Shown here: positions 796 through 22,946 of the stretch, piece by piece | How the letters are laid out: each line of letters starts with the position of its first letter | Position numbering within the stretch: position 1 is the stretch's first letter | Notes under the pieces: model-generated | Database searches by the model: none | The model's input: only the letters and a program-made list of their open reading frames with translations | Told to the model about the DNA's origin: nothing | Position numbers and translations under genes: made by a program | Source of the DNA: Kumtagia ephedrae | Lineage (GTDB): Bacteria > Pseudomonadota > Alphaproteobacteria > Rhizobiales > Rhizobiaceae | Assembly: GCF_003012745.1 (NCBI RefSeq) | Contig: NZ_PXYK01000002.1 | Span: 1 to 64,000 of the forward strand | DNA: 64,000 nt | Direction: 5' to 3'

Positions 796-2154
796 TCAGC
801 CTTCCAGCAGCCGCTCGACTGTCGCGGCCCCAGCCAGCAAACGGTCGTCGCTTCCGCGCGGGCCGGAGAGCAGGAGGCCGACTGGCATGGCGTCGGCGCC
901 CGTGCCGCACGGAAGCGATACGCCGCAGCAGTCGAGGAAATTGCCGACCAGCGTGTTGCGCAGCGTTTTTGCGTTGATGCGGAAGAACAGGTCCTCGTCT
1001 TCCAGCAGCGGCCCGACCGGCGGCGCGACATGCGGAAGCGTCGGGCTGAGCAGGATGTCGCCGGGTCCGATGCGCGCCTCGAAGGAACGGATCAGCCGCT
1101 CGCGCGCGTTCAGCGTTTCCACATAGTCGGCGAGCGAGATCTTTTCGCCCAGCGTCGTGCGCTTGACCACGCGCTGGTCCATCCGGGCCGCCTCGGGTCC
1201 AAAAATGCGGTCGCGATGGACAACGAAGGCCTCCGCCGTCACCAGCGCGCCGTGGCGGGCCATCAGCGCGAAAAGCTCGGCGAATTCCGGAAAGGGTTCG
1301 CGGCGGATGTGCGCGCCGGCAGCGGCCAGCCGCTCGACCGCCGTTTCGAAAGCGGCGACCACGCCCTCCTCCGCCTCGTCGAAGAAGACCGTCTGCGGGA
1401 TGACGAAGGCGAGCTCGGCCGGCAGTGGACGCGCCTGCCCGCCCGACACCGGCAGGCCGCGCATGGCGGCGTCGACCCAGACGGCGTCCTGTACCGTGCG
1501 GCAGAGCGGCCCCAGCGAATCCAGGCTTTTCGCCAGCGGAAAGACGCCGTCCATGGAATAGCGGCCGCGCGTCGCCTTGTAGCCGACGATGCCGTTGAAG
1601 GCGGCGGGGATGCGCACCGAACCGCCGGTGTCCGTGCCGATCGAGACCGGAACCAGGCCCGCCGCGACGGCGACGCCGGAGCCGGAGGAGGAGCCGCCGG
1701 GTATGCGGTGCTCGCCCTGAGGCGACGCCGGGTTGCGCGGCGTACCGTAATGCGGGTTGATGCCGAGGCCCGAGAACGCGAACTCGCTCATGTTGACGCG
1801 CCCGACGCTGACCATGCCGGCGCCGGCGAGCGCCTGCACGACGGCGGCATCGGCCTTCGCCGGTTCGGCCACGGCCAGCACGCGCGAACCGGCCGTGGTC
1901 GGCAGGCCGCTTATGTCGAACAGATCCTTCCAGGCGACCGGCACGCCGTCGAGCACACCCAGCGAGCGGCCGTCGCGAAAACGCCGGCGCGCGGCTTGCG
2001 CTTCCGACAGCGCGCGCTCCTCCAGCAGTGTGATGAAGATCGCGGTGTCGGGATGGCTGCGGATCGCCTCGAACGTCTGCTGCGCAAGGTCGACCGGATC
2101 GAGGGCGCCGGACTGCAGCAGCACCGAAAGCTGGGCGATCGACCGCGGTTCCAT
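796..2154 (-). CDS. Amidase-signature-family amidohydrolase
   Basis: 452 aa. Predicted to hydrolyse a C-N amide bond in the cytoplasm. The Ser-cisSer-Lys triad of the amidase signature family is visible: Lys76 in VAWKDLF, the serine cluster of GGSSSGSG at 153-160, and nucleophile Ser179 in DTGGSVRIP. No signal peptide. It is the last gene of a 12-gene minus-strand run; its ATG lies 2 bp after the stop of the upstream binding-protein-like gene, with AAGGA about 10 nt before it inside that gene's end, so the two are probably translationally coupled. The substrate cannot be read from sequence. The family includes allophanate hydrolase, glutamyl-tRNA amidotransferase A and many aliphatic or aryl amidases. 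Lack of GatB/GatC neighbours and the catabolic context argue against the tRNA role. Confidence 0.88.
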   Translation of the reverse strand: MEPRSIAQLSVLLQSGALDPVDLAQQTFEAIRSHPDTAIFITLLEERALSEAQAARRRFRDGRSLGVLDGVPVAWKDLFDISGLPTTAGSRVLAVAEPAKADAAVVQALAGAGMVSVGRVNMSEFAFSGLGINPHYGTPRNPASPQGEHRIPGGSSSGSGVAVAAGLVPVSIGTDTGGSVRIPAAFNGIVGYKATRGRYSMDGVFPLAKSLDSLGPLCRTVQDAVWVDAAMRGLPVSGGQARPLPAELAFVIPQTVFFDEAEEGVVAAFETAVERLAAAGAHIRREPFPEFAELFALMARHGALVTAEAFVVHRDRIFGPEAARMDQRVVKRTTLGEKISLADYVETLNARERLIRSFEARIGPGDILLSPTLPHVAPPVGPLLEDEDLFFRINAKTLRNTLVGNFLDCCGVSLPCGTGADAMPVGLLLSGPRGSDDRLLAGAATVERLLEG

Positions 2155-2156
2155 CG

Positions 2157-3389
2157 TCAGATGTCCTTCTCCGCCCGCCCGACCAGCTGCACCCAGCGGC
2201 GGACAAGATAGTTGTGCTCATCCATCGTGGTGTTCCACACCGCGATGCTGTTGGCGCGCTGCCAGTAGGAGCCGCCGCTGCGCACCGAGCCGCGCTTGAC
2301 GCGGATCGAGCCGTCGGGGCCCGGCAGATCCTCGCGCGCCGGCAAGCCCTCGTACCAGTAGTCCCATTCGGCGGGCGTCATATAGCAGCGGGAGCGCTCC
2401 GGCGTGGATATGTAATAACCCTGCCGCGCCACAACCGCGCCCGGCCAGCCGGAGATCCACCAGTTGAGATAGTCGTAGGCGACGTCGAGGTTACGTCCGT
2501 GCAGGCGCCGCGACAGGCAGAGCCCGCCGTGCCAGGCGCGATACCCTTCGGCGGGGGTGGCCTGCTCGATGGGAAAGCCCGAGCCGTTGAGGATGCCCAG
2601 CCCCGTCGACCACATGCTCTGGATGTCGGTCTCGCCGTCGATCATCAGCCGCGCGGCGTCCTCGGCGGTGCGCCAGAAGCCGCGGAAGAAGCCGGCCCTG
2701 CGCCGCTCTTCGAGGATGTCGACGAGCTGGTCGATCTCGGAAACGGTCATGTTGCCGATGTTGCCGAAGCTCATCAGCCCGGCCGCCTGGGCGGCAAGCG
2801 CGGCGTCGAAGATGCCGATCGCCGGCTCGTCGACCAGCGCAGCGCGGCCGCTCCAGCGCTGGTCGAGCAGCGCCGCCCAGCTGTTCATCGCCGGTGCATG
2901 GTCGACCGCATCGGTGCGATAGGCGAAGCTGTCGAAATTATGCGTCGTCGGCAGCATGGAGATGCGGCCGGTCGGCGTATCGCCGAGCGCGAAGCTCGGC
3001 TGCACATAGAGCTTGCGGGCCGGCACGTCGCCCTGCCCGGTGCGGGCGCTCGGCCCGATCTGGCCGGTCTTGGTCAGGTCGTTGATCTCGTCCCAGAGCG
3101 GGATGCGCGAAATCTCGATCGGCTGGATGGCCCGCCAGTACCAGACGATATCGAGGTTGTGAAAGCACTGGTCGTAGATGTCGTAGCCTTCCGGCTCCTG
3201 CGCGGCCTTGTGCTGGGTGACGATGAAGTCGTTGTTGTCGAAGCTGACCTCGATGCCGAGATCCTGCTCGGCCTTCACCCGCAGCTCCTCCAGCAGCGAG
3301 ATGGCGGTGCCGAGCACGCGCAGCTTCGGCTTCCCCGCCGTATGGATTGCAGGTGCGGCGGGCTGCGGGGCGGGCGTATGCTTGTTCAT
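2157..3389 (-). CDS. PotD-like binding-protein paralogue without a signal peptide
   Basis: 410 aa, resembling spermidine/putrescine-type ABC solute-binding proteins. The C-terminal third is clearly paralogous to the Tat-exported binding protein of the same operon (shared order GYY, M.PE, WYEG.P, GGS, RA, W, and a terminal DE..L...W). The N-terminus is MNKHTPAPQPAAPAIHTAGK running straight into the first beta strand (KLRVLG), with no hydrophobic core, lipobox or twin arginine. Start choice is firm: the ATG overlaps the CobW stop as ATGA. Reading upstream in frame for 23 codons gives a hydrophilic, arginine-rich stretch, not a missed signal. As written the protein would stay in the cytoplasm. 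It could be an intracellular ligand sensor, an enzyme-associated carrier or a decaying paralogue; overall length and domain order are intact, which argues against decay. Confidence 0.75.
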   Translation of the reverse strand: MNKHTPAPQPAAPAIHTAGKPKLRVLGTAISLLEELRVKAEQDLGIEVSFDNNDFIVTQHKAAQEPEGYDIYDQCFHNLDIVWYWRAIQPIEISRIPLWDEINDLTKTGQIGPSARTGQGDVPARKLYVQPSFALGDTPTGRISMLPTTHNFDSFAYRTDAVDHAPAMNSWAALLDQRWSGRAALVDEPAIGIFDAALAAQAAGLMSFGNIGNMTVSEIDQLVDILEERRRAGFFRGFWRTAEDAARLMIDGETDIQSMWSTGLGILNGSGFPIEQATPAEGYRAWHGGLCLSRRLHGRNLDVAYDYLNWWISGWPGAVVARQGYYISTPERSRCYMTPAEWDYWYEGLPAREDLPGPDGSIRVKRGSVRSGGSYWQRANSIAVWNTTMDEHNYLVRRWVQLVGRAEKDI

Positions 3390-4456
3390 CGAGAGTTCGG
3401 CGCGCTCCGGGCCGCGGCAGGCGGGGTTGCTGATACGCCGGCCGAGCGGCTGCGCGTGAAGGCATGGAGCGAGCGTTTCAACAAGCCGACGTCGAGACCG
3501 TCAACAATAAAGACGATGCGCGAGGTTCTGTCCGCCGATGGCCAGGCCTGCATGTGCACGGGCGGGTGGACGAGATGCTGAACGCCGTGGATGGCGACGG
3601 GCCGCTCCTCGCCGGCAAGATCGAGGATGCCCTTCACCCTGAGCACGCGGTCGCCGTGGCGGTTGAGCAGCATGGTCAGCCAGACGCCGAAGCCGGTCCA
3701 GTCCAGAGGTTCGTCGACGCTGACCACGAAGGAGGAGATGGCCGCCTGGTGTGCGGCCCCTTCCGCCGTCACCAGCATGGACGGGGCGTCGCAATAGAAG
3801 CCGCTGGCCGACTGCAGGCTCGCCGCCCTGCCCGCCTCGCCGTCGCCGAGCAGCACGTCCGCGCCGGGGCCGTCGGCGGCCGCGACGAAGCAGCCGGCAT
3901 CGGGGTTGATGCGGGCGAGACGCTCCTTCAGCGCGTCCATCGACGGGCCGTCGGCGAGGTCGGCCTTGGTGATCACCAGCCGGTCGGCGATCGCCGCCTG
4001 CCGGTTCGATTCGATGTAGGTGTCGAGCTGCGCCAGGCCGTTGACGGCGTCGACCGTGGTGACGACGCTACCCGGGCGGAAGTGGTGGCGCAGCACCGGG
4101 TCGGATTTCAGCGTCGACAGGACCGGAAAGGGATCGGCAAGGCCGGTGCTCTCGACGACGACGCGGGAGAAAGCCGGCACCAGGCCGCGTTCGCGTTTCG
4201 AATGCAGGTCGCGCAGCGCATCGGCCAGCTCGCCGCGCACCGTGCAGCAGACGCAGCCGGACTGTAGCAGCACCATGTTCTCGTCGATGCGCTCGACCAG
4301 GTGATGATCGAGGCCGATCTCGCCGAACTCGTTGATGAGCACGGCCGTGTCGGCGAGCGCCGGATCGGCGAGCAGCCGGCGCAGCAGCGTCGTCTTGCCC
4401 GAGCCGAGAAAGCCGGTCAGCAGGTAGACGGGGGTGAAGGCCGGCACATCAGCCAT
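3386..4456 (-). CDS. COG0523/CobW-family GTPase (metallochaperone-like)
   Basis: 356 aa. The N-terminal G domain has Walker A GFLGSGKT (15-22), INEFGEIGLD (41-50), the hallmark metal-binding CVCC (68-71), ESTG (102-105) and TKAD (163-166) as guanine-specificity motif; a CobW C-terminal domain follows. COG0523 proteins use GTP to insert or traffic Zn, Co or Fe into client enzymes. There is no cobalamin gene nearby, so cobN-associated cobW is unlikely. Its 5' end overlaps the small CxxC gene by 8 bp and its 3' end overlaps the signal-less binding protein by 4 bp. A likely client is the adjacent metal-dependent deacetylase-like hydrolase (inference). COG0523 proteins are also activators of nitrile hydratase, but no nitrile hydratase is present here. 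Confidence 0.88.
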   Translation of the reverse strand: MADVPAFTPVYLLTGFLGSGKTTLLRRLLADPALADTAVLINEFGEIGLDHHLVERIDENMVLLQSGCVCCTVRGELADALRDLHSKRERGLVPAFSRVVVESTGLADPFPVLSTLKSDPVLRHHFRPGSVVTTVDAVNGLAQLDTYIESNRQAAIADRLVITKADLADGPSMDALKERLARINPDAGCFVAAADGPGADVLLGDGEAGRAASLQSASGFYCDAPSMLVTAEGAAHQAAISSFVVSVDEPLDWTGFGVWLTMLLNRHGDRVLRVKGILDLAGEERPVAIHGVQHLVHPPVHMQAWPSADRTSRIVFIVDGLDVGLLKRSLHAFTRSRSAGVSATPPAAARSAPNSR

Positions 4457-4778
4457 CGGCGGCTTCCATGCGGGCGATCAGCGCGGGATCGAGCGGATCG
4501 CACGGCCGTCCGGACAGCCGCTCGGCCGCCGGCCAGAGATGGCCGAGATCCTCGATGATCTCGCTCTTGCCGGTGCGGGTGGCGATGACGAAGGACGAGC
4601 CCTGCCAGTCGGAAAGGCTCATGCCGAAGGCCGACAGGATGCGGTTAGCCGCCGCCACGCGGCGCGCCCGCTCGCGCCGCCGGTCGATGCGCTCGACGTT
4701 GCGCGTGTAGACGCCGGGCCGCGCCACCGCGTCGGTCCAGTGCTCGTTTCCACCCAGGACGCCGCAAAGCGAACACAT
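4449..4778 (-). CDS. Small conserved-looking CxxC protein of unknown function
   Basis: 109 aa, MCSLCGVLGG at the N-terminus giving a CxxC pair at Cys2/Cys5, His13 close behind, and a further Cys in GRPCDP near residue 92. The middle is arginine-rich and helical (RIDRRRERARRV), followed by a SLSDWQGSSF segment and a WPAAERL helix. I do not recognise a named family. It overlaps the CobW start by 8 bp. The cysteine-rich N-terminus next to a metallochaperone GTPase suggests a metal-binding partner or client, but that is inference. Composition and tight overlaps support it as a real gene despite its size. Confidence 0.7.
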   Translation of the reverse strand: MCSLCGVLGGNEHWTDAVARPGVYTRNVERIDRRRERARRVAAANRILSAFGMSLSDWQGSSFVIATRTGKSEIIEDLGHLWPAAERLSGRPCDPLDPALIARMEAADG

Positions 4779-4835: not shown

Positions 4836-5717
4836 TCACTTCTTGCGCGGGAAGCGCTTGGCAAAATCGTCGGCGATCTCGTTCATGGTGACGAATTTTA
4901 CGCCCGGATGCTTGATCATATGGGCATAGAGGCGTTCGAGCATCATCAGCACCTGCGGGCGGCCGGCGACGTCCGGGTGGATGGTGAGCGGGAACACCGC
5001 ATAGTCCATCTCGCGATAGACCCAGTCGAACTGGTCGCGCCACATCTGCTCGATGTCGTGCGGATTGACGAAGCCGTGGCTGTTCGGCGACTTCTTGATG
5101 AACATCATCGGCGGCAGGTCGTCGAGATACCAGGAGGCCGGGATCTCGATGAGGTCGGTTTCCTTGCCGCGCTTCAGCGGCACCATCCAGTCGGACGGTT
5201 TCTTCGAATAGTCGATCTTGGTCCAGCTGTCGCCGACCCGCACGTAATAAGGCGTGAAGTCGTTGTGCATCAGCGAGTGGTCGTACTTGATGCCGCGCTC
5301 CAGCAGCAGCTCGTTGGTGACGTTGGAGAACTCCCACCACGGCGCCACGTAGCCGGTCGGGCGCTTGCCGGCGAGCTTCGTCACGAGATCGATGCACTTG
5401 TCGAGGACCTCGGTCTCCTGCTCGCGCGTCATGGCGATCGGGTTCTCGTGGGTGTAGCCGTGGATGCCGATCTCGTGGCCGGCATCGGCGACCGCCTGCA
5501 TCTGCTCCGGAAAAGTCTCGATCGAGTGGCCGGGGATGAACCAGGTCGTCTTGATGCCGAAACGGTCGAACAGTTTTAGCAGCCGCGGGCTGCCGACCTC
5601 GCCGGAAAACAGGCCGCGCGAGATGTCGTCGGGCGAATCCTCGCCGCCGTAGGATCCGAGCCAGCCGGCTACGGCATCGACGTCGATACCGAAGCTGCAA
5701 AAGATCTCCTTGGCCAT
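4836..5717 (-). CDS. NodB-homology deacetylase / cyclic-imide hydrolase-like (PuuE-like)
   Basis: 293 aa, a cytosolic member of the polysaccharide-deacetylase fold (CE4-like). Metal-site motifs are visible: IDVDA with Asp12/Asp14, and GIHGYTHEN with His86 and His90. WFIPGHS (59-65) and a late [10 protein letters not shown] are typical of the PuuE / HpPgdA / imidase branch, which lacks a signal peptide and acts on small molecules such as allantoin or cyclic imides and not on secreted polysaccharide. With an amidase four genes downstream, a two-step ring opening followed by amide hydrolysis is attractive (inference). The following gene starts 57 bp downstream. Substrate unknown. Confidence 0.8.
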
Positions 5718-5758: not shown

Positions 5759-6862
5759 TCAGTGCGCGGGGATGACCGTCGCCTCGGCGGCCTTCCAGCT
5801 CAGCAGCACGCCGCTGCCGACCGGGAAGGCGCCCGGCTGGTACTTGTCCACGTGGGCCTCCAGCGAAACGGTGCGGCCGTCCAGGAGCCGTGCTGTGAGA
5901 TGCGAGATGTGGCCGACGACGTCGAAGCTTTCGATGTGGGCGTCGACGAGATTGGTCGTGCCGCCGCGCGTCAGGCGTTCGCGGGTGGCGGCGGCGTGTA
6001 CCTCAATCGCCTCGGCCGGCACCACGAGGTTGACGCGGCCCTTGTCGGCCGTCCTGCCGTTGGCGCGGCCGCTGAGCACACCGACGCCGGTCGACACGAC
6101 GATGTCCTCGCCCTGAGTGCCGGCGACCTCGCCCTGCAGGACGGTGTTGCGGCCGATGAACTGGGCGACGAAAGGCGTGTTGGGCCGGGTGTAGAGCTGG
6201 TGCGGCGGGCTGACCTGCTCGACGCGGCCCTGGTTCATGACGACGATGCGGTCGGACAGCGCCAGCGCCTCCGACTGGGCGTGGGTGACGAAGATGAAGG
6301 TGACGCCGAGCCGCTTCTGCAGGAGCTTCAGCTCGTTCTGGATGGCTTTTCGCAGATTGGCGTCGAGCGCGCCGAGCGGCTCGTCAAGAAGCAGGATGTC
6401 CGGCTCGACGGCGAGGCCGCGCGCCAGCGCGATGCGCTGGCGCTGCCCGCCCGACAGCCGGTCCGGCTTGCGGTCGGCGATGTCCTCGAGATCGAGCGTG
6501 GCGAGGATATGGTCAACCTTGGCGTCGCGCTCGGCCCTGGGCAGGCCCTTGACCTCCAACCCGTAGCCGACGTTGCGGCGCACCGTCATGTGCGGGAACA
6601 GCGCATAATTCTGGAAGATCATCGAGGTCGGACGGCGCTGCGGCGGCACGTCGTTCATGCGCTCGCCGCGGATCAGCATGTCGCCCGACGAGATGCTCTC
6701 GAAGCCGGCGATCATGCGCAGCGTCGTGGTCTTGCCGCAGCCCGACGGGCCGAGAAAGGCGATGAACTCACCTTTGGCGACCGACAGGTCGAAGTCGATC
6801 ACCGCCGGCGTGCCGTTGTCGTAGACCTTGCCGGCATTTTTGAGTTCCAGGTCGAAGATCAT
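5759..6862 (-). CDS. PotA-type ABC transporter ATPase
   Basis: 367 aa. Walker [10 protein letters not shown] (38-46), Q-loop in FQNYALFP, signature LSGGQ (136-140), Walker B ILLLDEP (156-162), then a C-terminal TOBE-like regulatory region. It energises import through the two PotB/PotC-type permeases upstream. Unusually, the operon encodes a second ATPase at its promoter-proximal end (11573-12646), so the importer could be a heterodimeric-ATPase system or the two ATPases could alternate. It starts 64 bp after the Tat-exported binding protein and ends 41 bp before the deacetylase-like gene. Confidence 0.92.
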
Positions 6863-6926: not shown

Positions 6927-8159
6927 TCAGGCGCTCAGGAACTCGTCCCACTTCTGGATGAGGTGGTCGTACTCGTCCGGCCACTGGTGCCAGTAGGCGA
7001 CGTTGGCCGCACGCTCCTCCAGCGAGCCGCCGTCGCGCAGATCGCCTTCCTTGATGCCGCGCTCCTCGGCGCCGACCCAGGGCTTGCCCTCGTACCAGAA
7101 GGCGTATTTCTCCGGCGCCATGACGTTCTTGATGTTGGTCGACGGCGAATAGTAGCCCTGCTCGGAGACGGTGATGCCCGGTTCGCCCGACAGCCAGAAA
7201 TCGCAATAGGCGATGACGGCTTCGCGGTTCGGCGTGCCGGCGAGCATCGAAGGGCCGATCGCCCAGCCGCGATAGCCCTCCTTCGGCACGGCGTACTTCG
7301 CGGGCTTGCCCTGCGCCTTCACCGCCATGACGGCCGGCTGCCAGGCGTCGGAGACCACCATCTCGCCCGAGGCCATCAGGTTGACCAGCTCGCCGAAGTC
7401 GCCCCACAGGGCGCGGAACTGGCCTTCCTTCTTCTTGGCGATCAGGAATTTCGCGGCCTCGTCGATCTCGGCCGTGTTGGGATTGCCGGGGTTCTTCACG
7501 TCGGAGAGGCCCAGCGTGTTCATGGCCATGACGGCCTGGCCGAAGGCGATCAGCGGATCGGTGTTGAGGCCGGACTTGCCCTTCCATTTCGGGTCGAAGA
7601 TGCAGGCCCAGGTATTGGCTTCCTCGGCGGTCACCACGTCCGGGTTGTAGCCGATCGAGTCGTAGTTGTAGACGACCGGCACCATGTTGAGCGTGGTCTG
7701 GCCCTCATCGGCCCATATCTGGCCGACGATCTGCGCGCGGCGCTCCCATTTGTCGCTCGGCTTGGTGAAGGTGTCACGGATGTTCGCCCAGTTCTTGAGC
7801 GAGGCCGCGGGGATCGGCTCGACATTGTCGGTCATGACGATCGACGGCAGGCGCTCGCCGATGGTCTCCCAGCAGTCGTAGTCCTTCGAACCGGAAAGGA
7901 TCTTGGTCTGCGCGTCGGGGAAGGTCGCGGCCGTGCCGGAGGTGGTGCCGACGCCGGAGGCCTTCTTGAACTCCTCGAGGATGCGCTCCTGCACCGTGAC
8001 CGAAAGGCCGATGGTGCGGAGCTGCTGGCCGGCGAGATCGGCGGCCTGCGCCCAGGCGGCGCGCGACGACAGCAAGGACGTGCCGCCTCCCATGGCGAGC
8101 GCGATCGCGCCTGCGGACCGCTTCAGAAGGGAGCGGCGATTGATTTCCATTGTGGACAT
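6927..8159 (-). CDS. PotD-type periplasmic solute-binding protein, Tat-exported
   Basis: 410 aa. The N-terminus has a twin-arginine signal (INRRSLLKRSAGAIALAMGG) and a probable cleavage after AWA near residue 37. Mature sequence matches the spermidine/putrescine-type cluster of extracellular binding proteins. It is the ligand receptor for the importer encoded by the adjacent ATPases and permeases. Tat export implies folding before export, possibly with a bound cofactor or ligand. The signal-less gene at 2157-3389 is its paralogue. The ligand is not necessarily a polyamine; this subfamily is broad. Confidence 0.92.
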   Translation of the reverse strand: MSTMEINRRSLLKRSAGAIALAMGGGTSLLSSRAAWAQAADLAGQQLRTIGLSVTVQERILEEFKKASGVGTTSGTAATFPDAQTKILSGSKDYDCWETIGERLPSIVMTDNVEPIPAASLKNWANIRDTFTKPSDKWERRAQIVGQIWADEGQTTLNMVPVVYNYDSIGYNPDVVTAEEANTWACIFDPKWKGKSGLNTDPLIAFGQAVMAMNTLGLSDVKNPGNPNTAEIDEAAKFLIAKKKEGQFRALWGDFGELVNLMASGEMVVSDAWQPAVMAVKAQGKPAKYAVPKEGYRGWAIGPSMLAGTPNREAVIAYCDFWLSGEPGITVSEQGYYSPSTNIKNVMAPEKYAFWYEGKPWVGAEERGIKEGDLRDGGSLEERAANVAYWHQWPDEYDHLIQKWDEFLSA

Positions 8160-8252: not shown

Positions 8253-9023
8253 TCAGTACCGGCCCACGAGCAGGCCGCCATCCACGACCAGCACCTGGCC
8301 GGTCATGTATCTCGCTTCCTTCGAGGCCAGGAACGCGATGACATCGGCGATGTCCTCCGGCGTTCCGAGCCGCCCCATCGGAATGAATTCCGCCGCCTTC
8401 TCCGCGGCCACGGGACCCAGCGAATTCTCCTCGGACAGGAGCTGGGCGGTGCGGATATAGCCCGGCGCCACGCCGTTCACCCGCACGCCGTCCCTGGCCA
8501 GCTCCACGGCGAGCGCCCTGACCAGGCCGACCACGCCGGATTTCGCCGCCGAATAATGGACGTGCTCGTCCCAGCCATAGGCGACGCCCATGATCGAGGA
8601 GAGCGCGACGACGCTGCCCGAGCGGCGGGCGCGCATGCCGGGCGCGGCGGCCCGCACCAGCCGGAAGATGCCCTTGAGGTCGATGTCGAAGGTTAGGTCC
8701 CACTTCTCGTCGGTGAGCTCGGCCAGCGGCGTGCGGTGGGCGATGCCAGCATTGGCGACGATGACGTCGATCCGCCCGTGGCGCGCCTCGACATCGGCAA
8801 CCAGCGCGTCGGCGGCCTCCCTGGAGCGCACGTCGTAGCGACGGAACTCGGCCGAGCCGCCGGCCGCCGCGATGGCCTGCGCCGTCTCGCGGCCTTCCTT
8901 CTCGAGGATGTCGGTCACCACGACATGGTCGCCGAGCGCGCCAAAAGCCTTGGCGGTCGCATGGCCGATGCCGATGCCGGCGCCGGTGATGATGACGATG
9001 CGGTTCTTCTTGTCTTCGCTCAT
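8253..9023 (-). CDS. SDR-family oxidoreductase
   Basis: 256 aa classical short-chain dehydrogenase/reductase. NAD(P)-binding TGAGIGIG (13-20), NAG motif (91-93), catalytic Ser142/143, Tyr157 and Lys161 in YSAAK, and a C-terminal QVLVVDGG. Cytosolic NAD(P)-dependent alcohol/ketone or imine chemistry. It lies 13 bp after the preceding SDR and 93 bp before the binding-protein gene, within the same minus-strand operon. Asp38 at the end of beta-2 (VVTDIL) suggests a preference for NAD(H). Specific substrate unknown. Confidence 0.88.
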   Translation of the reverse strand: MSEDKKNRIVIITGAGIGIGHATAKAFGALGDHVVVTDILEKEGRETAQAIAAAGGSAEFRRYDVRSREAADALVADVEARHGRIDVIVANAGIAHRTPLAELTDEKWDLTFDIDLKGIFRLVRAAAPGMRARRSGSVVALSSIMGVAYGWDEHVHYSAAKSGVVGLVRALAVELARDGVRVNGVAPGYIRTAQLLSEENSLGPVAAEKAAEFIPMGRLGTPEDIADVIAFLASKEARYMTGQVLVVDGGLLVGRY

Positions 9024-9036
9024 GTCGATCTCGCTC

Positions 9037-9774
9037 TCAAAGCATCACGTCGCCGGAGTTCGGCCCGAGCGTCTGCCCGACGAACAGGCTGGCGGCAGGC
9101 GAAGCGAGGAAGGCGACCGTCTCGGCCACCTCCTCCGGCTCGCCGAAGCGGCCGAGCGGCAGCTGCGCCCGCTTGGTGGCGCGCCAGTCCTCGGAAAGCT
9201 CCATGACCAGCGGCGTGTTGATGGGACCGGGGGCGACGGCGTTGACGCGCACGCCGCGGGCCGACACCTCCCGCGCCAGCGCCTTGGTCATGCCGATGAT
9301 CGCCGCCTTGGCGCCGGAATAGTGGACGAGCTCGACCCCGCCGATCTGGCCGAGCTGCGAGGCGATGTTGACGATCACGCCCTTGCCCGCCGCGAGCATC
9401 GCCGGCAGCACCGCCCTGGTCACCAGGAAGGTGCCGCGCACATGCACGGCGAACATGCGGTCGAAATCCTCGACCTTCAGGTTCTCGAACAGCGCCTGGT
9501 GCGCGATGCCGGCATTATTGACCAGCAGCCCGACCTCGCCATGGGCGTCGAGCGCGGCCTCGTGGATCGCCGCTACATCCGTCTCCCTGGAGACGTCGCC
9601 AGCCCTGGCCGCCGCGACGCCGCCCTTTGCGCGGATGGCCGACGCCACCGCTTCGGCGCGCTCCGGGGAGAGATCGTTGACGAGGACGGCATAACCGTCG
9701 GCGGCGAGCCGCTCGGCTATGGCCTTGCCGATGCCGGAGCCGGCGCCGGTGACGATGGCGGAGACGGCGGCCAT
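9037..9774 (-). CDS. SDR-family oxidoreductase
   Basis: 245 aa classical SDR. VTGAGSGIG at the N-terminus, NNAG near 86-89, catalytic Ser139, Tyr152 and Lys156 (YSGAK), and late motifs AVAPGPINTP and LGPNSGDV, the latter replacing the usual VDGG. ATG at 9774 overlaps the permease stop by one base (TGATG); a GTG directly before it at 9777 is an alternative start. Paired with the adjacent SDR, it may catalyse consecutive oxidation steps on the imported compound (inference). Confidence 0.87.
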   Translation of the reverse strand: MAAVSAIVTGAGSGIGKAIAERLAADGYAVLVNDLSPERAEAVASAIRAKGGVAAARAGDVSRETDVAAIHEAALDAHGEVGLLVNNAGIAHQALFENLKVEDFDRMFAVHVRGTFLVTRAVLPAMLAAGKGVIVNIASQLGQIGGVELVHYSGAKAAIIGMTKALAREVSARGVRVNAVAPGPINTPLVMELSEDWRATKRAQLPLGRFGEPEEVAETVAFLASPAASLFVGQTLGPNSGDVML

Positions 9775-10619
9775 CACGCTTCCTCCTGGATGGCGACGCG
9801 CCTGGCCCTGCGCACCGACATCGCCATCAGGATGGCGTAGGTGCCGAGCAGCGCGAAGGAGAACAGCGTGGTGAGCACGCCGAAGGCAAAGACGTTCGGA
9901 TGCACCTCCACCGAGAAGGTGCCGTAGATGGCGAGCGGCAGCGTCAGGTCGCGGCCGGAGGCGAACAGCGTGCGCGAGAACTCGTCATAGGACAGCGTGA
10001 AGGCGAACAGCATGGCCGAGAGCACGCCCGGGAAGATCAGCGGGAAGGTGATCTTGCGGAAGGTGCGGGCCGGGCTGACGCCGAGCGACCACGATGCCTC
10101 CTCCACGCTCGGGTCGAAGCGGTTGAAGATCGCCAGCATCACCAGGAAGGCGAAGGGGAAGGTGTAGACGACGTGCAGAACGAAGGCCGTGCCCCACCAG
10201 TGGCGGTCGATGCCGAAGGCGTTGGCGACCAGCGCCATGCCGAGGCCGACCAGCACGCCCGGAACCATCATGCCGAGCACGATCAGGTAGAAGACGACGC
10301 CCGAGCCGCGGAACTTGCGGCGGAAGGCCTGCGCCGCGGTGACGCCGAGCACGGTGGAGACGACCATCGTCATCACGGCAAGCGTCAGCGAGCGGACCAG
10401 CGCCTGCTCGATCGGCAGCGGCGCGATGCGCGAGGGCGGCGTCAGGCCGAACAGGTGGCGGTACCAGTAGGTCGACCACTCGATGATCGGGAACTGCGGC
10501 CCGCCCTCCGGCCCCGTCTGGAAGGACAGGATGCCGAGCACGACCAGCGGCCCGTAGAGGAAGACGATGAACAGCGCCGTGTAGAGGCCGAGCCCGAACT
10601 TGATGCCGGTGGCGTTCAT
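9774..10619 (-). CDS. PotC-type ABC transporter permease
   Basis: 281 aa with about six hydrophobic segments, the first at residues 8-30. The cytoplasmic EAA loop is visible as EEASWSLGVSPARTFRKI before a proline-containing helix. It forms the inner-membrane channel with the other permease, whose stop precedes this ATG by 2 bp. The chosen ATG gives the normal N-terminus for the family (short tail, then YTALFIVFLYGPL); reading further upstream only enters the neighbouring gene in another frame. Confidence 0.92.
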   Translation of the reverse strand: MNATGIKFGLGLYTALFIVFLYGPLVVLGILSFQTGPEGGPQFPIIEWSTYWYRHLFGLTPPSRIAPLPIEQALVRSLTLAVMTMVVSTVLGVTAAQAFRRKFRGSGVVFYLIVLGMMVPGVLVGLGMALVANAFGIDRHWWGTAFVLHVVYTFPFAFLVMLAIFNRFDPSVEEASWSLGVSPARTFRKITFPLIFPGVLSAMLFAFTLSYDEFSRTLFASGRDLTLPLAIYGTFSVEVHPNVFAFGVLTTLFSFALLGTYAILMAMSVRRARRVAIQEEA

Positions 10620-10621
10620 GG

Positions 10622-11527
10622 TCAGAGCTCCTTCCTCAGATCGACCACCCGCAGCAGCGCCGCGACGACGATGCCCATCAGGACGGTGAGGACGACGCCG
10701 GCGACGGCGGCGAAGGCCCATTTGAGCGATCCGACCTGGGTCACGATGATGTTGCCGAGCAGGTTGACCTTGCGGCCGGAGAGCGCCGCGGCCGTGGCGA
10801 ACTCGCCCAGCACCATGACCGAGACGAAGATCGCACCGACGACCACGCCGGGCATGGACAGCGGCAGGATGATGGTGCGGAAGATGCGCCAGAAGCCGGC
10901 GCCGAGGTCCTGAGCGGCCTCCAGCACCGACGGGTCGATGCGGCCGAGCATGAAGGCGATCGGCCCGACCATGAAGACGCAGTAGATCTGCGTCATGCCG
11001 ATGATCACCGACAGTTCGGAGAACAGCAGCACCTCGATCGGCTGGTCGACGATGCCGAGATTCATCAGGATCATGTTGATCGCCCCCTCCTTGCCGAGCA
11101 TCGGCCGCCAGGCCAGCACGCGGATGAGGAAGGAGGTCCAGAACGGGATGACGCAGAGCACGAGCAGCGCGGTGGAGAGCGTCTTGTTCCTCACGAACAG
11201 GCCGACGAACAGGGCGGCGGGATAGCCGACGACGAGCGTGGCGACGAGCACGATCAGCCAGATACGGACCGTCGTCCACAGCGCGCCGATATAGGTGTCG
11301 CTGCTGAAGAAGGTGATCCAGCTCTTCAGCGTCAGCGTCGGCTCGATCTTGAAGGTCGTCTGCGTCCAGAACGAGACATAGACCATCATGGCGATCGGCA
11401 GCACCAGGAAGAGCAGCATCCAGATGACGCCTGGAGCGAGCAGCCAGAACGTCCGGTCCGACCGCTTCCCGTCCTGGCTGGCCGCTGCTTCGGCCGGTCT
11501 ATCTTGGCTCGTGGCAGCCATCGTCAT
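10622..11527 (-). CDS. PotB-type ABC transporter permease
   Basis: 301 aa, six hydrophobic segments (first FWLLAPGVIWMLLFLVLP) and an EAA loop LEAAQDLGAGFWRIFRTI. A hydrophilic Ala/Asp-rich N-terminal tail of about 25 residues precedes the first membrane segment. Start at the ATG with GGAG ahead of it; an in-frame start 11 codons upstream lacks a good ribosome site. It pairs with the downstream permease. Confidence 0.92.
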   Translation of the reverse strand: MTMAATSQDRPAEAAASQDGKRSDRTFWLLAPGVIWMLLFLVLPIAMMVYVSFWTQTTFKIEPTLTLKSWITFFSSDTYIGALWTTVRIWLIVLVATLVVGYPAALFVGLFVRNKTLSTALLVLCVIPFWTSFLIRVLAWRPMLGKEGAINMILMNLGIVDQPIEVLLFSELSVIIGMTQIYCVFMVGPIAFMLGRIDPSVLEAAQDLGAGFWRIFRTIILPLSMPGVVVGAIFVSVMVLGEFATAAALSGRKVNLLGNIIVTQVGSLKWAFAAVAGVVLTVLMGIVVAALLRVVDLRKEL

Positions 11528-11572
11528 TTCTCGTTCTCCAATGGGAGGCCGGCACCGCACGCCGCGCGGACA

Positions 11573-12646
11573 TCACGCGAAGACAAGGGAGTCCTCCTTC
11601 TTCCAGACGAGCGCATAGCGGCCGCGTTCCTCGTAGTTTTCCGGGGCGGCGTGGCTCAGATGGGTCTCCACTTCGAAGACGCGGCCGTCGTCGAGGGCGA
11701 AGAAGGAGTTGATCGCCGCACCCGAATACTCGCTGGCGACGAAGCTGCCCTCGATGCGGACCTCGTCGCCGGCGGGTGCCGCATCCTTCGGCCGGATCGA
11801 CACGCGGTCGTAGCGGATGGCGTAGGCGGGCTTGGCGGAGGGCTGACGGGCGTCGCCGAGCGCCAGCCGCCCGACCGGGCTGACGAACGCGTCGTCCGCC
11901 AATTCGCCGGAGAAGATGTTGAAGCAGTTGAGGAATCTTGCCACGTCCGGCGAGGCGGGACGGCTGTAGAGCGTGCCGGCATCGGCCGACTGGGCGATCC
12001 TGCCGCGGTCGAGCACGAGAACCGTGTCGCCCATGGCGAGCGCCTCGGTCTCGCTGCCGGTGACATGCAGGAAGGTGACGCCGCAGCGCTCGCGGATTTT
12101 CCGCAACTCGCCGCGCATGCGGGTGCGCAGATTGGCGTCGAGCGCGCCGAGCGGCTCGTCGAGCAGCACCATGCTGGGCTCGGTCACCAGCGTGCGGGCG
12201 AGCGCCACGCGCTGCTTCTGGCCGCCGGAGATCTGGGTGATCGCCCGGTCCTCGAGCCCGGCAAGCCCGACCAGCGCGATCATGTCGCGCACGCGGCCGG
12301 CGACGATCTTCACATCCGTCACCGGATCGACGACGCGGCTCTCAAGGCCGAAGGCGATGTTCTGCCTGACGCTCAGATGCGGGAACAGCGCGAAATTCTG
12401 GAAGACGAAGCCGATGCCGCGCTGGTGCGGTGGCACGCCGTCGATGCGGCGGCCGGCGAACAGGATCTGGCCGCCGTCCGCAGGCTCGAAGCCGGCGATC
12501 ACGCGCAGGAGCGTCGTCTTTCCCGATCCGCTCGGCCCGAGCAGCGACACATAGGCGTCGTTCGGCAGGGTGGCGTCGATTCCCGCAAGCGCGGGGACGC
12601 CCGCGTAGGATCTGTGGACGTTCTTCAATTGCAGGACAGCCGACAC
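11573..12646 (-). CDS. PotA-type ABC transporter ATPase, first gene of the operon
   Basis: 357 aa from a GTG preceded by ATAGGAG, the best ribosome site in the region; an in-frame ATG 11 codons further up and an ORF extension to 12853 are arginine-rich and unlike the family. Walker A GPSGSGKTT (37-45), FQNFALFP Q-loop, ISGGQKQR signature, MVLLDEP Walker B, and a C-terminal TOBE-like domain. The D-loop H-motif region reads THLHVTGSE instead of the usual TH(D/A)Q: HVTGSETEALA keeps the switch histidine (LHVT) but changes the following residues. Second ATPase of the operon, separated from the first permease by 45 bp. Confidence 0.88.
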   Translation of the reverse strand: MSAVLQLKNVHRSYAGVPALAGIDATLPNDAYVSLLGPSGSGKTTLLRVIAGFEPADGGQILFAGRRIDGVPPHQRGIGFVFQNFALFPHLSVRQNIAFGLESRVVDPVTDVKIVAGRVRDMIALVGLAGLEDRAITQISGGQKQRVALARTLVTEPSMVLLDEPLGALDANLRTRMRGELRKIRERCGVTFLHVTGSETEALAMGDTVLVLDRGRIAQSADAGTLYSRPASPDVARFLNCFNIFSGELADDAFVSPVGRLALGDARQPSAKPAYAIRYDRVSIRPKDAAPAGDEVRIEGSFVASEYSGAAINSFFALDDGRVFEVETHLSHAAPENYEERGRYALVWKKEDSLVFA

Positions 12647-12841
12647 GTCCGCTCCTATCCAGTCCGAGGCCAGGCGCATCGCGGCAATGCTCCGCCGCCG
12701 GGCGCATCGGCGCCCAGGCAAAGCGGCCAGCCTTCGCGCATCATCGGACGCGCATGACAGCGATGTTCCTTGGCTCCTCGCTTCGTTCCACCTGCAGCGC
12801 CTCTCCGGGCGCCTTGGCAGAAAAACTATCTCACGAATGAT

Positions 12842-13086: not shown

Positions 13087-13128
13087 CATTTTATGGCATC
13101 CTTTCCTTTGCAAGGAGAATACGCCAGT

Positions 13129-14178
13129 GTGCGCGCGATCGAACGATGCGGACGCATGACGGGAACCATGGACGACGACCGCACAACCGCCGGCACGCAG
13201 AGGCGCTACGAGATCGCCGAAGACGTGCTGCGCGGCAATATCGAGGCCGGCATCCTGCCGCCCGGGCTGGTGCTTCTCGAAGGCCCGATCGCCGAGATCC
13301 TGCAGATATCGCGCGCACCGGTGCAGCGGGCGCTGCAGGCCCTCGAAGCGGAGGGGCTGATCCACCGCTTCGCCGGACGCGGCTTCCTGGTCGGCGCGCC
13401 GGGCAGCGCCATCGAGCCGAACAGGACGGAGATCAAGTCGCTCGGCCTGATCGTGCCGCGCCATGCCGACGAGGCACTGCAGAGCCGCTCCTCGTGGGAG
13501 CGGATCTACAACACGGTCGAGGCGGACGTCGCCGGATGCGTGATCTTCGGCCAGTACCGCATCATCGAGATGGAGCTCGCCAATCATTTCAACGTCAGCC
13601 GCACCGTGGTGCGGGACGTGCTGACGCGGCTGCGCGAGCGCGGGCTGGTGCGCAAGAACCAGAGCTCGCACTGGATCGCCGGCCCGCTGACGGCGCAGAC
13701 GGTCAAGGACCATTTCGCGCTGCGCAGGATGCTGGAGCCGCCGGCGATCCGCCTCGGCGCCGGCGCCATCGACCAGGCGCGGCTGGAGGCGCTGCTGGCG
13801 CGGCTGCGCCAGGCCGAGGGCGGCAGCGGCGGCGATTTCCTGCGCGAGGTCGAGGCGGTGCAGGCCGACTTCATCGAATGCTGCGTGCTTGCTGCCCCCA
13901 ACGAGCGGCTGCGCGACCTGGTGCGCAACAACCTTTTGCCGGTGACGGCCACCGAGCGGCTGCTGCGCCGGCTCGGCCTGCCGGGCGACCCGGCGATCAT
14001 CACGGAGCTCAGGCTGATCGTCGAACTGCTGCAGCGCGGCGCGACGGACGCGGCGGTCTCGATGATGGACACGCATCTCGAAGCGTCGCTCAACCGGACC
14101 ATCGCGCAGATGAAGATCGTCGCGATCATCCCGCGGCCGGGCGCGACGGCCGCCTATCTCACGCCGGTGCTGGACTAG
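13129..14178 (+). CDS. GntR-family regulator with two winged-helix domains
   Basis: 349 aa from a GTG with AAGGAG 11 nt upstream (13112-13117); in-frame ATGs at 13156 and 13168 are alternatives, while the ATG at 13093 lies within the AT-rich control region. Residues about 27-89 form one GntR winged helix (RYEIAEDVLRGNIEAGILPPG ... ISRAPVQRALQALEAEGLI ... GRGFLVG). Residues about 121-183 form a second one (IYNTVEADVAGCVIFGQYRI ... FNVSRTVVRDVLTRLRERGL). A helical FCD-like ligand domain follows to the end. Ordinary FCD regulators have one winged helix and about 220-250 aa, so this is a duplicated-DNA-binding-domain variant. It is divergent from the 12-gene ABC operon and probably controls it. 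Confidence 0.85.
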   Translation: MRAIERCGRMTGTMDDDRTTAGTQRRYEIAEDVLRGNIEAGILPPGLVLLEGPIAEILQISRAPVQRALQALEAEGLIHRFAGRGFLVGAPGSAIEPNRTEIKSLGLIVPRHADEALQSRSSWERIYNTVEADVAGCVIFGQYRIIEMELANHFNVSRTVVRDVLTRLRERGLVRKNQSSHWIAGPLTAQTVKDHFALRRMLEPPAIRLGAGAIDQARLEALLARLRQAEGGSGGDFLREVEAVQADFIECCVLAAPNERLRDLVRNNLLPVTATERLLRRLGLPGDPAIITELRLIVELLQRGATDAAVSMMDTHLEASLNRTIAQMKIVAIIPRPGATAAYLTPVLD

Positions 14179-14248: not shown

Positions 14249-15220
14249 TCACGCCAGCGCCACGTGGAGCGCGTCGAGCGCGGCGCGGCGGGCCTTTCGC
14301 GCCGCCAGCGCCTCTTCCATCGTCACCTCGACGAAGCGTGTCGGCGTGTGCGGCTGCAGTTGCCCGATCAGGTCCATGTCGGCCGAGATCACCGTGCCGA
14401 CCATGAAGTAGCCGCCGCCGGAGACGGCGTCGCGGTGCAGGATGATCGGCTCGGTGCCGCCCGGCACCTGGATGGAGCCGTAGGGATAGCAGCTGTCGAC
14501 GATGTTGGAGGGGTCGGAGCCGGCGCCGAAAGGCTGCTCGCGCTCGACGAAGTCGAGTTTTCTGCCGCCCTTGAAGCGGTAGCCCATGCGGTCGGCCTCA
14601 TTGGCGACCTTCCACTCGTCGGCGAAGAAGTTTTTCTGCGATTCCTCGGTGACGCGGTGCCAGTACAGGCCGGGCAGCACGCGCAGCTCGACCGGCATGC
14701 TCGGCGCGCGGCGGAATTTTTCGCGGAGCGAGCGCCCCTCCGCGGCGAGGCTGCCCTTGCCGACCGGCAGTTCGTCGCCCGCCGCCAGCGGCCGGCCCTT
14801 GTAGCCGCCGAGCGCGCCGATCGGATAGGTGGAGCGGCTGCCGAGCGCCACCGGCACGTCGATGCCGCCGGAGACGGCGATGTAGATGCGGGCGCCCGAC
14901 TTCAGGAAGTCGAAGGTGAGCGTCTGGCCGGCCTTGACCTTGAACGCCGTCCAGCCAGGCTGCGCCACACCGTCGACTTTGGCCGGCATGTCGGCGCCGG
15001 TCACGGCGACCAACCCGTCCTCGGTGAATTCGAGTTTCGGGCCGATGAAGACGGCTTCCAGGCCGGCCGCGCCCTCGTCATTGCCGACGAGCAGGTTGGC
15101 GGCGCGCAACGCGTAGCGATCCATGGCGCCGCCGACCGGGATGCCGAGATGGAAATAGCCGGGCCGGCCGAGATCCTGGACGGTGGTCGCCAGACCGTGA
15201 TGCACAACCTTAATTGCCAT
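14249..15220 (-). CDS. pxpC: Biotin-dependent carboxyltransferase-like / 5-oxoprolinase subunit C
   Basis: 323 aa, AHS2/KipA family (IKVVHHGLATTVQDLGRPG at the N-terminus, then GIPVGGAMDRYALRAAN and FGAGSDPSNIVDSCYPYGS). PxpC works with PxpB and PxpA in ATP-dependent opening of 5-oxoproline; the same fold forms the carboxyltransferase half of urea carboxylase. The ATG overlaps the pxpB stop by 11 bp. Last gene of the pxpA-accB-accC-pxpB-pxpC operon. The substrate may be a lactam other than 5-oxoproline. Confidence 0.88.
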   Translation of the reverse strand: MAIKVVHHGLATTVQDLGRPGYFHLGIPVGGAMDRYALRAANLLVGNDEGAAGLEAVFIGPKLEFTEDGLVAVTGADMPAKVDGVAQPGWTAFKVKAGQTLTFDFLKSGARIYIAVSGGIDVPVALGSRSTYPIGALGGYKGRPLAAGDELPVGKGSLAAEGRSLREKFRRAPSMPVELRVLPGLYWHRVTEESQKNFFADEWKVANEADRMGYRFKGGRKLDFVEREQPFGAGSDPSNIVDSCYPYGSIQVPGGTEPIILHRDAVSGGGYFMVGTVISADMDLIGQLQPHTPTRFVEVTMEEALAARKARRAALDALHVALA

Positions 15221-16084
15221 TGAGCACGCCCTCGAGCTTGGCATTGTAGCCGTCGATGTCACGGCGGAATTCGCGCAGGTCGAAGCTGACCTCGCGGATC
15301 GGCGGCGCAAAGCGTCCGCCGGCGACGTCCTCGACGGCCTGGTCGTAAGCGTCGCGGCCGATCGCCTTGAACTTGACGATGTCGCCCGGGCGGAAGAACA
15401 CCATGAAGTCGCGGAGGTAGCTGGTGGTCTGCGTCGGGTCGAAGATCGGCATCGGCGTGATGCCGAACATCTGGTAGCCGCCGGCGCCGCGTACCGAATA
15501 GATGCAGCCGAAGCAGCCGCCATGCCCGACCGTCAGCTTCGGCGTGTCGGTGCGCGGGCGCAGGTATTTCGGCACCTGGATCTGCCGCTGCCGCTCGACC
15601 ATCTGGTACATGAACGGCAGGCCGGCGACGAAGCCGACCATGGAGACAAACCAGGGCGAGCCGGAATGGGCGGCGACGAAGTCGTCGACCGAGCCGTAGT
15701 CGTTGATGCGCGCGGCGTAGTCGAGGTCGGTGCCCGACGGATCCTGGTGCCGCTCGCGAAAGCGCATCAGCGTCTCATGCGTCCACGGATCGTTGTAGAA
15801 GACCGGGATCTCGACGATGCGCGTATGGATGACCGGCTCGGCCTTCTCGGCCGCCTGCTCGATCGCCTTGACTTCCTTGAGGATGTCGTCCGGGCTGATC
15901 ACGTCCGGGTCGAACTTAACCTGGAGCGAGGCGTTGGCCGGGCAGATCTCCGTGACGCCCCTGATGCCGCTGTCGCGAACCCCGCCGGACATGGACAGGC
16001 TCTTGAAGAAGGCGTCCAGCGACATCTCCTCGCTGCATTCGACGAACAGGTGCTCGTCGCCGCCGAAGGAATAACGAACGCCCA

Positions 16085-16085
<1 letters not shown>
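15210..16085 (-). CDS. pxpB: 5-oxoprolinase subunit B / KipI-AHS1 family
   Basis: 291 aa; AHS1 (KipI) domain with VRYSFGGDEHLFVEC at the N-terminus and GHGGCFGCIYSVRGAGG plus FRPGDIVKF late. The insertion between them (WFVSMVGFVAGLPFMYQM) matches the 'GFxPGFPY'-type region of KipI proteins but with variant residues. Start ATG overlaps the accC stop by one base (TGATG). It forms a complex with PxpC; in urea-carboxylase-like enzymes the AHS1/AHS2 pair transfers the carboxyl from carboxybiotin. Confidence 0.86.
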
Positions 16086-17466
<1,381 letters not shown>

Positions 17467-17470
<4 letters not shown>

Positions 17471-17709
17471 GCCTCGACCTCGGCGATGACCTGGCCGGCC
17501 ATGATCGGCTCCTCATTGTCGAGCAGGAAGCGGATCGCCTTGCCGTCGACGCCGGCCGAAACCTCGTGAAAGGTCTTCATGACCTCGATCAGGCCGATGG
17601 TGTCGCCGCTCGCCACCGCATCGCCGTCGACCTTGAAGGCCGGCGCGTCGGGCGACGGCGACCGGTAGAACGTGCCGGGCATGGGCGCTCTGATCTCGTG
17701 CTTGCTCAT
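17467..17709 (-). CDS. Minimal biotin carboxyl carrier protein
   Basis: 80 aa, consisting only of a biotinyl domain: APMPGTFYRSPSPDAPAF then IEVMKTFHEV, with Lys45 as biotin-accepting residue. The usual flanking motif is AMKM; VMKT is typical of carrier proteins in such clusters. It lacks the long Ala/Pro-rich N-terminal half of housekeeping AccB (about 150 aa). It lies 12 bp after pxpA and overlaps accC by 4 bp. It would carry carboxybiotin from AccC to the PxpB/PxpC transferase-like pair. Confidence 0.9.
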
Positions 17710-17721
17710 CTACAAGAATCC

Positions 17722-20939: not shown

Positions 20940-21180
20940 CGTCCGTCCGCGAGAGCAGCGGCAAGAGTATGCGCGGCGGGGCGCGAACGCAACGCGGCGG
21001 CCGCGAAAGTGCGCCCGGCGTCAACGCGTCCTTCCCTCAGCGCAAAGACGGGAGCCGGCAAAGCTGCTTGGCTTGCGCAGGCAAACGGCGCGGAAGCCGC
21101 CGGCGATCTTTTCGGGAACACTCTGTCGGCAGACGGCCTCGCGGGCCGCTTGCCGCATCGCCGCGGCACTGGAGGAACGA

Positions 21181-22935: not shown

Positions 22936-22946
22936 GGGCAGCGGCA

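Follow-up and report, generated by a model that had tools for sequence, protein, structure and literature searches.

The use of binding proteins for signalling is already known from several systems. In the LacI/GalR regulators and in AraR, a periplasmic-binding-protein fold is joined to a DNA-binding domain, and AraR uses a winged helix of the GntR type. FCD regulators normally sense their ligands themselves. In addition, TorT and TorS form a pair consisting of a substrate-binding protein (SBP) and a histidine kinase. Antognoni and co-workers reportedly found in 1999 (J Biol Chem 274:1942) that the PotD precursor inhibits the transcription of potABCD. NspS is another binding protein, which we take to be kin to PotD. 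In PMC8967002, the NspS–MbaA system of Vibrio cholerae is described as one in which the binding protein serves signalling and not transport.

In our study, the window (the whole stretch of 64,000 nucleotides that was analysed) contained a gene for a PotD-type binding protein without a signal peptide, which lies at 2157-3389 in an ABC operon with permeases and ATPases (Table 1). We consider it fairly probable that this gene encodes a cytosolic ligand sensor, which is paired with a GntR/FCD regulator and acts in a probable cyclic-imide pathway.

Table 1. Features of the window around the signal-less binding protein and the proposed partner regulator.
Feature	Position	Strand	Basis
Amidase (NCBIfam PRK06102), half-amide hydrolase by inference	796..2154	(-)	NCBIfam match
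Signal-less PotD-type binding protein (proposed cytosolic ligand sensor)	2157..3389	(-)	410 aa, ATG start at 3389
Codon of Trp260, aligned with PotD ligand residue Trp229	2610..2612	(-)	HMMER alignment
Codon of His77, aligned with PotD Tyr85 (weak stretch)	3159..3161	(-)	Alignment
Short N-terminal tail (residues 1-21) where exported relatives have the Tat signal	3327..3389	(-)	N-termini of relatives; pLDDT <50 in residues 1-17
CobW/COG0523 GTPase, ATGA overlap with the SBP start	3386..4456	(-)	Family match
109-aa protein with N-terminal MCxxCG and HWTDA motifs, overlaps CobW	4449..4778	(-)	No Pfam/NCBIfam match
"Polysaccharide deacetylase", HpPgdA / cyclic-imide-hydrolase type	4836..5717	(-)	3qbu match
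ABC ATPase 1	5759..6862	(-)	Family match
Tat-exported binding protein of the ABC transporter	6927..8159	(-)	Family match, BLASTP
SDR oxidoreductase 1	8253..9023	(-)	Family match
SDR oxidoreductase 2	9037..9777	(-)	Family match
ABC permease 2 (start approximate)	9774..10619	(-)	
ABC permease 1	10622..11560	(-)	Family match
ABC ATPase 2 (start approximate)	11573..12679	(-)	
GntR regulator with two GntR winged-helix stretches, FCD and subfamily C-terminal tail (proposed partner)	13093..14178	(+)	Pfam, alignment

The ATG of the 2157-3389 protein overlapped the stop codon of CobW as ATGA (CTCGATGAACAAG), and the ATG of the amidase was found 2 nt past the stop of the gene. The 37 in-frame codons upstream of the ATG at 3389, back to the stop codon, contained no ATG, GTG or TTG, so that no alternative start of these kinds supplies a signal, and an upstream start restoring one was rejected. 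An earlier note on this DNA had placed the start of the product at the mature domain and had held that the in-frame upstream stretch is not a signal sequence; both claims stood. The nucleotide differences between the gene and its Shinella orthologue (L047) numbered 33, 14 and 121 at codon positions 1, 2 and 3, respectively, and the gene looks to be under purifying selection. A pseudogene or decaying copy was rejected because of the third-position-rich differences and the wide conservation. The product was 27% identical to the Tat-exported protein of the operon in BLASTP (386 columns, E 3e-48), in agreement with the common motifs that the same note had reported, and 28% identical in a multiple alignment. 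The further claim that it is a paralogue of the operon's protein held only in a distant sense; the tree sets the two far apart, with other families between them. A recent duplication of the exported protein was also rejected because of the 28% identity and the long separate branch.

The N-termini of the relatives were compared across 101 related genomes. All ten of the closest proteins (that of the window and nine at 50–80% identity) started at an ATG shortly before the mature domain. The next 20 relatives with loci (35–39% identity) carried a clear Tat signal in 19 cases, and one was cut by a contig end. Named genomes were scanned as well and yielded 486 related stretches. The best 80 were retained (61–90% identity), and these included Shinella, Rhizobium, Ensifer, Mesorhizobium, Labrys and Chelatococcus. 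No signal was seen at the visible starts in 76 of these 80 contig loci; in L065, L083, L086 and L096 the open frame continued further upstream, and some places were duplicated between the locus sets (L002/L069, L003/L073 and L101/L128). Across orthologues, from that of Shinella to those of Klebsiella and Paraburkholderia, the short N-terminus was kept. Furthermore, a signal score was calculated from the 60 residues immediately preceding the mature domain, as the highest hydropathy of any 14-residue segment. The median was 0.25 (range −1.27 to 1.24) for the signal-less loci, of which 104 of 110 were scored and six had too little room, and 1.46 for 70 exported relatives, with a range (0.55 to 2.24) that overlaps that of the signal-less loci. 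All 70 exported relatives possessed RR, KR or NR.

On this evidence, an export signal of the Sec, Tat or lipoprotein type is absent from the 2157-3389 protein, and a cytosolic location is very likely. The cytoplasmic location predicted earlier is strongly supported by the sequences, through the short N-termini of the ten closest proteins and the persistence of the protein in MFS clusters without the operon's ABC importer. An alignment of homologues had been proposed as a check, and it showed the short N-terminus to be conserved in the ten closest proteins and in further orthologues with visible starts. Signal-bearing homologues in the same position, which would have spoken against the prediction, were not found among the loci compared; those with a signal adjoined ABC permeases or histidine kinases. 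As to database names, several family members are called "extracellular solute-binding protein", and the public records for the signal-less members L127, L162 and L164 say "signal peptide prediction", which is a misleading product name.

The relationship of the signal-less proteins to the exported ones was studied with a tree of 109 rows obtained in a quick search. The 44 signal-less rows, which include two identical pairs, formed one side of one branch with an SH-aLRT of 82, and the long rows L160, L163, L164 and L165 were flagged as being of unsure place. A group of 23 Tat-exported, kinase-linked rows was sister to these 44 (union 100*), and the ABC-linked families and the operon's exported protein fell outside this union. 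In a phylum-wide search, the closest proteins outside the clade itself were Tat-exported relatives at 45–53% identity, and the sampled ABC-linked families reached 33–43%. A kinase match was present in the examined stretch of 23 of 23 sister-clade rows, and an ABC match in none of them. For 15 sister loci mapped over longer stretches (L225-L239), a kinase-like gene came next on the same strand, at no more than 113 nt from the gene of the exported protein in 14 loci; the weak match of L236 lay at 388 nt. In ten of the 15, counting L226 itself, the kinase matched that of L226 at 44–100% over 925–956 columns, and in four at 25–29% over 616–686 columns. The Pfam-scanned kinases of L226, L228 and L237 were hybrid histidine kinases with two membrane helices by hydropathy, 260–271 residues apart. 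Taken by themselves, the L225-L239 pairs look like an uncharacterised periplasmic sensor pair of an exported PotD-like protein and a kinase-like gene. The kinase-linked sister clade would be expected to have a sensor role.

The GntR subfamily was searched in 117 loci, consisting of the window, 36 genome or plasmid loci and 80 named contigs that are mostly of Rhizobiales. It was found in the examined stretch of 69 loci, made up of 33 among the first 37 and 36 among the contigs. Its absence from 44 contigs says little because the contigs mostly stop at a flank of about 10 kb. Among the first 37, the misses L243 and L244 (genomes G1040 and G872) had the regulator about 10 kb upstream on the same contig, and those of G1067 and G1028 (L247 and L249) had it elsewhere. 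The regulator lay within 150 nt of the binding-protein gene in 16 of the 117 loci, all among the first 37 and none in the 80 contigs. These pairs, some of which are close relatives of each other, were arranged with the SBP before GntR in eight cases, GntR before the SBP in four, convergently in three and divergently in one. In window-type loci about 10 kb separated the binding-protein gene from the regulator, which stood at the opposite end of the operon, and in the window the regulator is divergent from the ABC operon. The L252 and L254 loci kept the GntR–SBP pair and had no counterpart of the operon's permeases, exported protein, imidase or CobW; Pfam-confirmed HyuB or HyuA genes and other ABC ATPases lay near the pair. 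L250 was without the operon's permeases, exported protein and CobW.

The presence of the two genes matched as well. Among 397 genomes of the order, the signal-less protein was found in 20 (E 1.6e-135 or better; next best genome 1.1e-122) and the GntR subfamily in the same 20 (E 1.9e-114 or better; next best 7.4e-83), in searches with the same settings that scored the best 4–5 candidates per genome, with cut-offs at the gaps in the results and among genomes that are related. The GntR model was built from genes beside the SBP or in its operon; eight of the 20 genomes gave rows to it and 12 gave none. The imidase was present in 18 of the 20 genomes, the exported protein in 17, and a CobW-family protein, from a broad family, in all 20. 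For the 23 kinase-linked genomes, neither the GntR subfamily (0/23, with three weak hits near 1e-22) nor the imidase (0/23) was found. Four of the five MFS-type genomes possessed the regulator; G787 gave no hit, and its contig ends about 200 nt past the amidase, just where the regulator gene would be expected. In short, the signal-less protein and this regulator are genetically linked and co-occur.

The regulator itself showed two PF00392 stretches and PF07729 in the window and in L038. For the regulators of L250, L252 and L254 one GntR stretch was reported, though the alignment spans both regions. The FCD metal ligands were eroded in the window-type regulators and kept in the MFS-type ones, and decay of the FCD site as proof of outsourced sensing was rejected for want of consistent support. 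A C-terminal tail pattern, defined post hoc, occurred in 19 of 23 SBP-linked GntR proteins and in none of the 29 that were examined from the genome's 31 other FCD regulators; the four SBP-linked ones that it missed had Met where the pattern wants Leu or Val.

The neighbouring genes point to the pathway. The 4836-5717 product matched H. pylori HpPgdA (3qbu) with an E of 2.9e-158, and it was 88–97% identical in five mapped loci and 64–67% in four others. Its relatives are annotated as polysaccharide deacetylases, though the product is closest to HpPgdA. In PMC9304392, 3qbu is given as the closest known structural homologue of the Aspergillus nidulans cyclic imidase HxnM, and HxnM acts after the dehydrogenase HxnW and before the amide hydrolase HxnN. 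The 4836-5717 product is predicted to be a cyclic imide hydrolase, its kinship to HxnM running through the shared 3qbu link. Two SDR oxidoreductases, the HpPgdA-type protein and the amidase in one operon suggest that its context is likely a hydroxylactam or cyclic imide pathway. Beside the operon, KipA/KipI, biotin carboxylase and YcsF (PxpABC-like) genes lie at 14249-18492, and similar genes recur near the signal-less protein elsewhere, for instance directly upstream in L249. Moreover, hydantoinase/oxoprolinase genes that look like HyuB/HyuA, as judged by eye, were seen at 20911-25025 on the (+) strand. The operon also holds two different ABC ATPases (5759-6862 and 11573-12679), so the importer may use a heterodimer.

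A rival reading is a cytosolic carrier or buffer, which would pass the substrate, once imported or once its ring has been opened, on to the imidase or amidase. The gene is joined to CobW by the ATGA overlap and spaced from the amidase by 2 nt in the window. When the genes matched by the query set are counted, its upstream neighbour was CobW in 76 and its downstream neighbour the amidase in 69 of the 80 contig loci, the best of 486. However, this adjacency to CobW and the amidase is typical of Rhizobiales loci and is lost in several others. An asparaginase takes the place of the amidase in Thioclava; in Paracoccus the stretch showed no amidase, and the cluster next to it has an annotated asparaginase. 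The GntR pair of L252 and L254 stands without imidase, CobW or amidase in the stretch, and the imidase is missing from two of the 20 genomes with the signal-less protein. We regard the carrier as unlikely.

The fold of the protein was examined by family search and structure prediction. The SBP_bac_8 family (PF13416) was matched with 33.1 bits against a cut-off of 27 (E 7e-8). A structure model built from 27 rows had a mean pLDDT of 83, with residues 1-17 under 50, and aligned with YdcS at Z 30.9 (327 residues, rmsd 3.0) and with PotD at Z 28.6. The comparison with PotD that had been proposed earlier thus returned a PotD-type fold, and the model predicts the two-lobed PotD/YdcS architecture over the whole mature chain. 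S83 and Y85 are among the ligand residues of PotD. All 44 signal-less rows had His at position 77, which aligned with Y85 in a weak stretch; none of the 65 exported rows did. Other PotD ligand residues were taken from PMC11414716. In the HMMER alignment, PotD W229, W255 and Y293 corresponded to W260, W286 and Y325 of the 2157-3389 protein, and these positions held Trp in 40, Trp in 44 and Tyr in 37 of the 44 signal-less rows, respectively. PotD E171 and D257 aligned with Gly192 and Gly288 (Gly in 43/44 and 39/44 signal-less rows), which argues that the protein is probably not a polyamine binder; D168 aligned with Glu188, and E36 was unaligned. The pocket would seem to be working but altered, which fits ligand binding.

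The invariant and clade-specific His77, at a probable pocket position, and the conservation across alpha-, beta- and gammaproteobacterial hosts would also be expected of a new enzyme on the periplasmic-binding-protein fold, for instance a pathway isomerase or hydrolase. Among the positions at least 90% conserved in the signal-less rows, however, 75 had the same residue, equally conserved, in the kinase-linked exported clade, and 12 had another major residue there, a pattern that speaks for binding and against a new catalytic site. In addition, adjacency and presence track the regulator more closely than the enzymes. A new enzyme is quite unlikely.

The order of imidase, small protein, CobW and SBP in many Rhizobiales loci, and of small hypothetical gene, CobW and SBP in the MFS-type plasmid clusters, raises a further reading, in which the protein assists the CobW GTPase and its CxxC neighbour in loading metal into the imidase. 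A variable Cys75 together with the invariant His77 would be compatible with it. Cys75, however, is replaced by Trp in 17 of the 44 signal-less rows, and in L252 and L254 the GntR pair has no CobW in its stretch, so that we regard metal loading as very improbable. Regarding the 109-aa protein at 4449-4778, its MCxxCG and HWTDA motifs were largely conserved in six aligned members, and it is possibly a metal carrier for the imidase.

The relation of the signal-less proteins to transport was investigated through the transporter genes and through the docking residue. On Paraburkholderia, Pantoea, Klebsiella and Acidiphilium plasmids, an equivalent cluster with an MFS transporter kept the signal-less protein, and no counterparts of the operon's ABC permeases or exported protein were found in these clusters. 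The MFS transporter replaced the operon's ABC importer in nine mapped loci (L159-L162, L166, L240-L242 and L310). Counterparts of the operon's permeases were found neither in these nine nor in L250, L252 and L254, with unrelated ABC genes near some of them. Two of the plasmid stretches had unrelated transporter genes further off: that of Pantoea contained a maltose importer, and that of Klebsiella ended with an ABC substrate-binding protein. In PotD, according to PMC11414716, E220-E222 touch the permease and a triple mutant docks weakly. Glu at the position of E222 was present in 42 of 42 ABC-linked exported proteins (the 32 rows of two outside families, all with an ABC permease or ATPase match and 31 with a permease, and ten exported proteins of the operon), in none of 23 kinase-linked and in four of 44 signal-less rows. 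The copy of the window retains the docking Glu (DGE) and is one of these four. The signal-less family as a whole seems to have left transport. It is barely credible that the protein is an exported binding protein of the ABC transporter which lacks a signal and crosses the membrane by other means, such as being carried along by a Tat substrate, since the ABC operon of the window and its retained Glu are outweighed by the persistence in MFS clusters without a counterpart of the operon's permeases, the presence of Glu in only four of 44 members, and the normal Tat-exported binding protein that the operon already has.

For the sensor, a retained pocket, a lost export tag and a shared journey with GntR together make an intracellular sensor for GntR probable. 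The mechanism may be pictured as follows. A PotD-type protein, whose sister clade is Tat-exported and kinase-linked, would have lost its Tat signal, or would never have had one in this clade, and would then have paired with the GntR/FCD regulator. Its ligand would be a cytosolic intermediate of the pathway, on which it would close; a hydroxylactam, a half-amide or a cyclic imide is probable. Once loaded, it would bind or release GntR and alter the activity of that regulator, and this would tune the expression of the uptake and degradation operon. Support for this mechanism comes from the kinase linkage of the sister clade, from the docking residue that most signal-less members have lost, and from the pairing with GntR. 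A more specific form, which we hold about equally likely to be right or wrong, is a split cytosolic one-component system, in which an ex-periplasmic receptor, kin to the kinase-sensor lineage, is the detachable effector-binding subunit of the tandem-winged-helix GntR/FCD protein and docks on the conserved C-terminal tail of that subfamily.

Several observations stand against the sensor reading. The window's own copy is one of the four with the docking Glu. In the window the regulator is about 10 kb distant, and it is with CobW and the amidase that the binding-protein gene is coupled. A CobW-family protein also occurs in 20 of 20 genomes, though this family is broad. FCD domains are normally self-sensing, and their erosion is inconsistent among the partners. 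The branch of the clade has an SH-aLRT of only 82 in a quick search, with four long rows of unsure place. Of the ligand sensor, substrate-delivery protein and new enzyme that the earlier note had offered, the ligand sensor is the best supported, with the GntR protein at 13093-14178 as partner rather than CobW or the amidase, whose adjacency is lost in several loci; a delivery protein or a new enzyme is possible.

Binding proteins are reflexively annotated as extracellular transport subunits, and this signal-less family corrects such database names. Furthermore, with members in alpha-, beta- and gammaproteobacteria, the family makes it possible to study how a receptor comes to work in another compartment and with another partner, the periplasm with a histidine kinase as against the cytosol with GntR. 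It may also serve as a natural template for ligand-responsive transcription switches built from the large stock of binding proteins.

A search of open-access papers found no cytosolic binding protein paired with GntR, and one for the R. johnstonii copy by locus tag, with guessed prefixes, found nothing. Like PotD, PotF and YdcS of E. coli, the window protein has the two-lobed fold and three matching pocket aromatics; it differs from them in the missing signal peptide, in the change of the amine-binding acids E171 and D257 to Gly, in the docking Glu kept by four of 44 clade members, and in that its proposed partner is a transcription regulator. The NspS–MbaA and TorT–TorS systems resemble the sister clade, which is encoded with histidine-kinase genes, in that a binding protein has a signalling partner. 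However, these systems are periplasmic and signal via membrane proteins, whereas the window protein is predicted to be cytosolic and paired with a DNA-binding protein. The PotD precursor is similar to our proposal in being a PotD-type protein that acts on transcription, but it belongs to the transporter itself; our proposal concerns a dedicated family, signal-less and with its own regulator. Finally, LacI/GalR and AraR are single fused chains with a type I fold, whereas in the present system the PotD-type (type II) protein and the GntR/FCD protein would be two chains.
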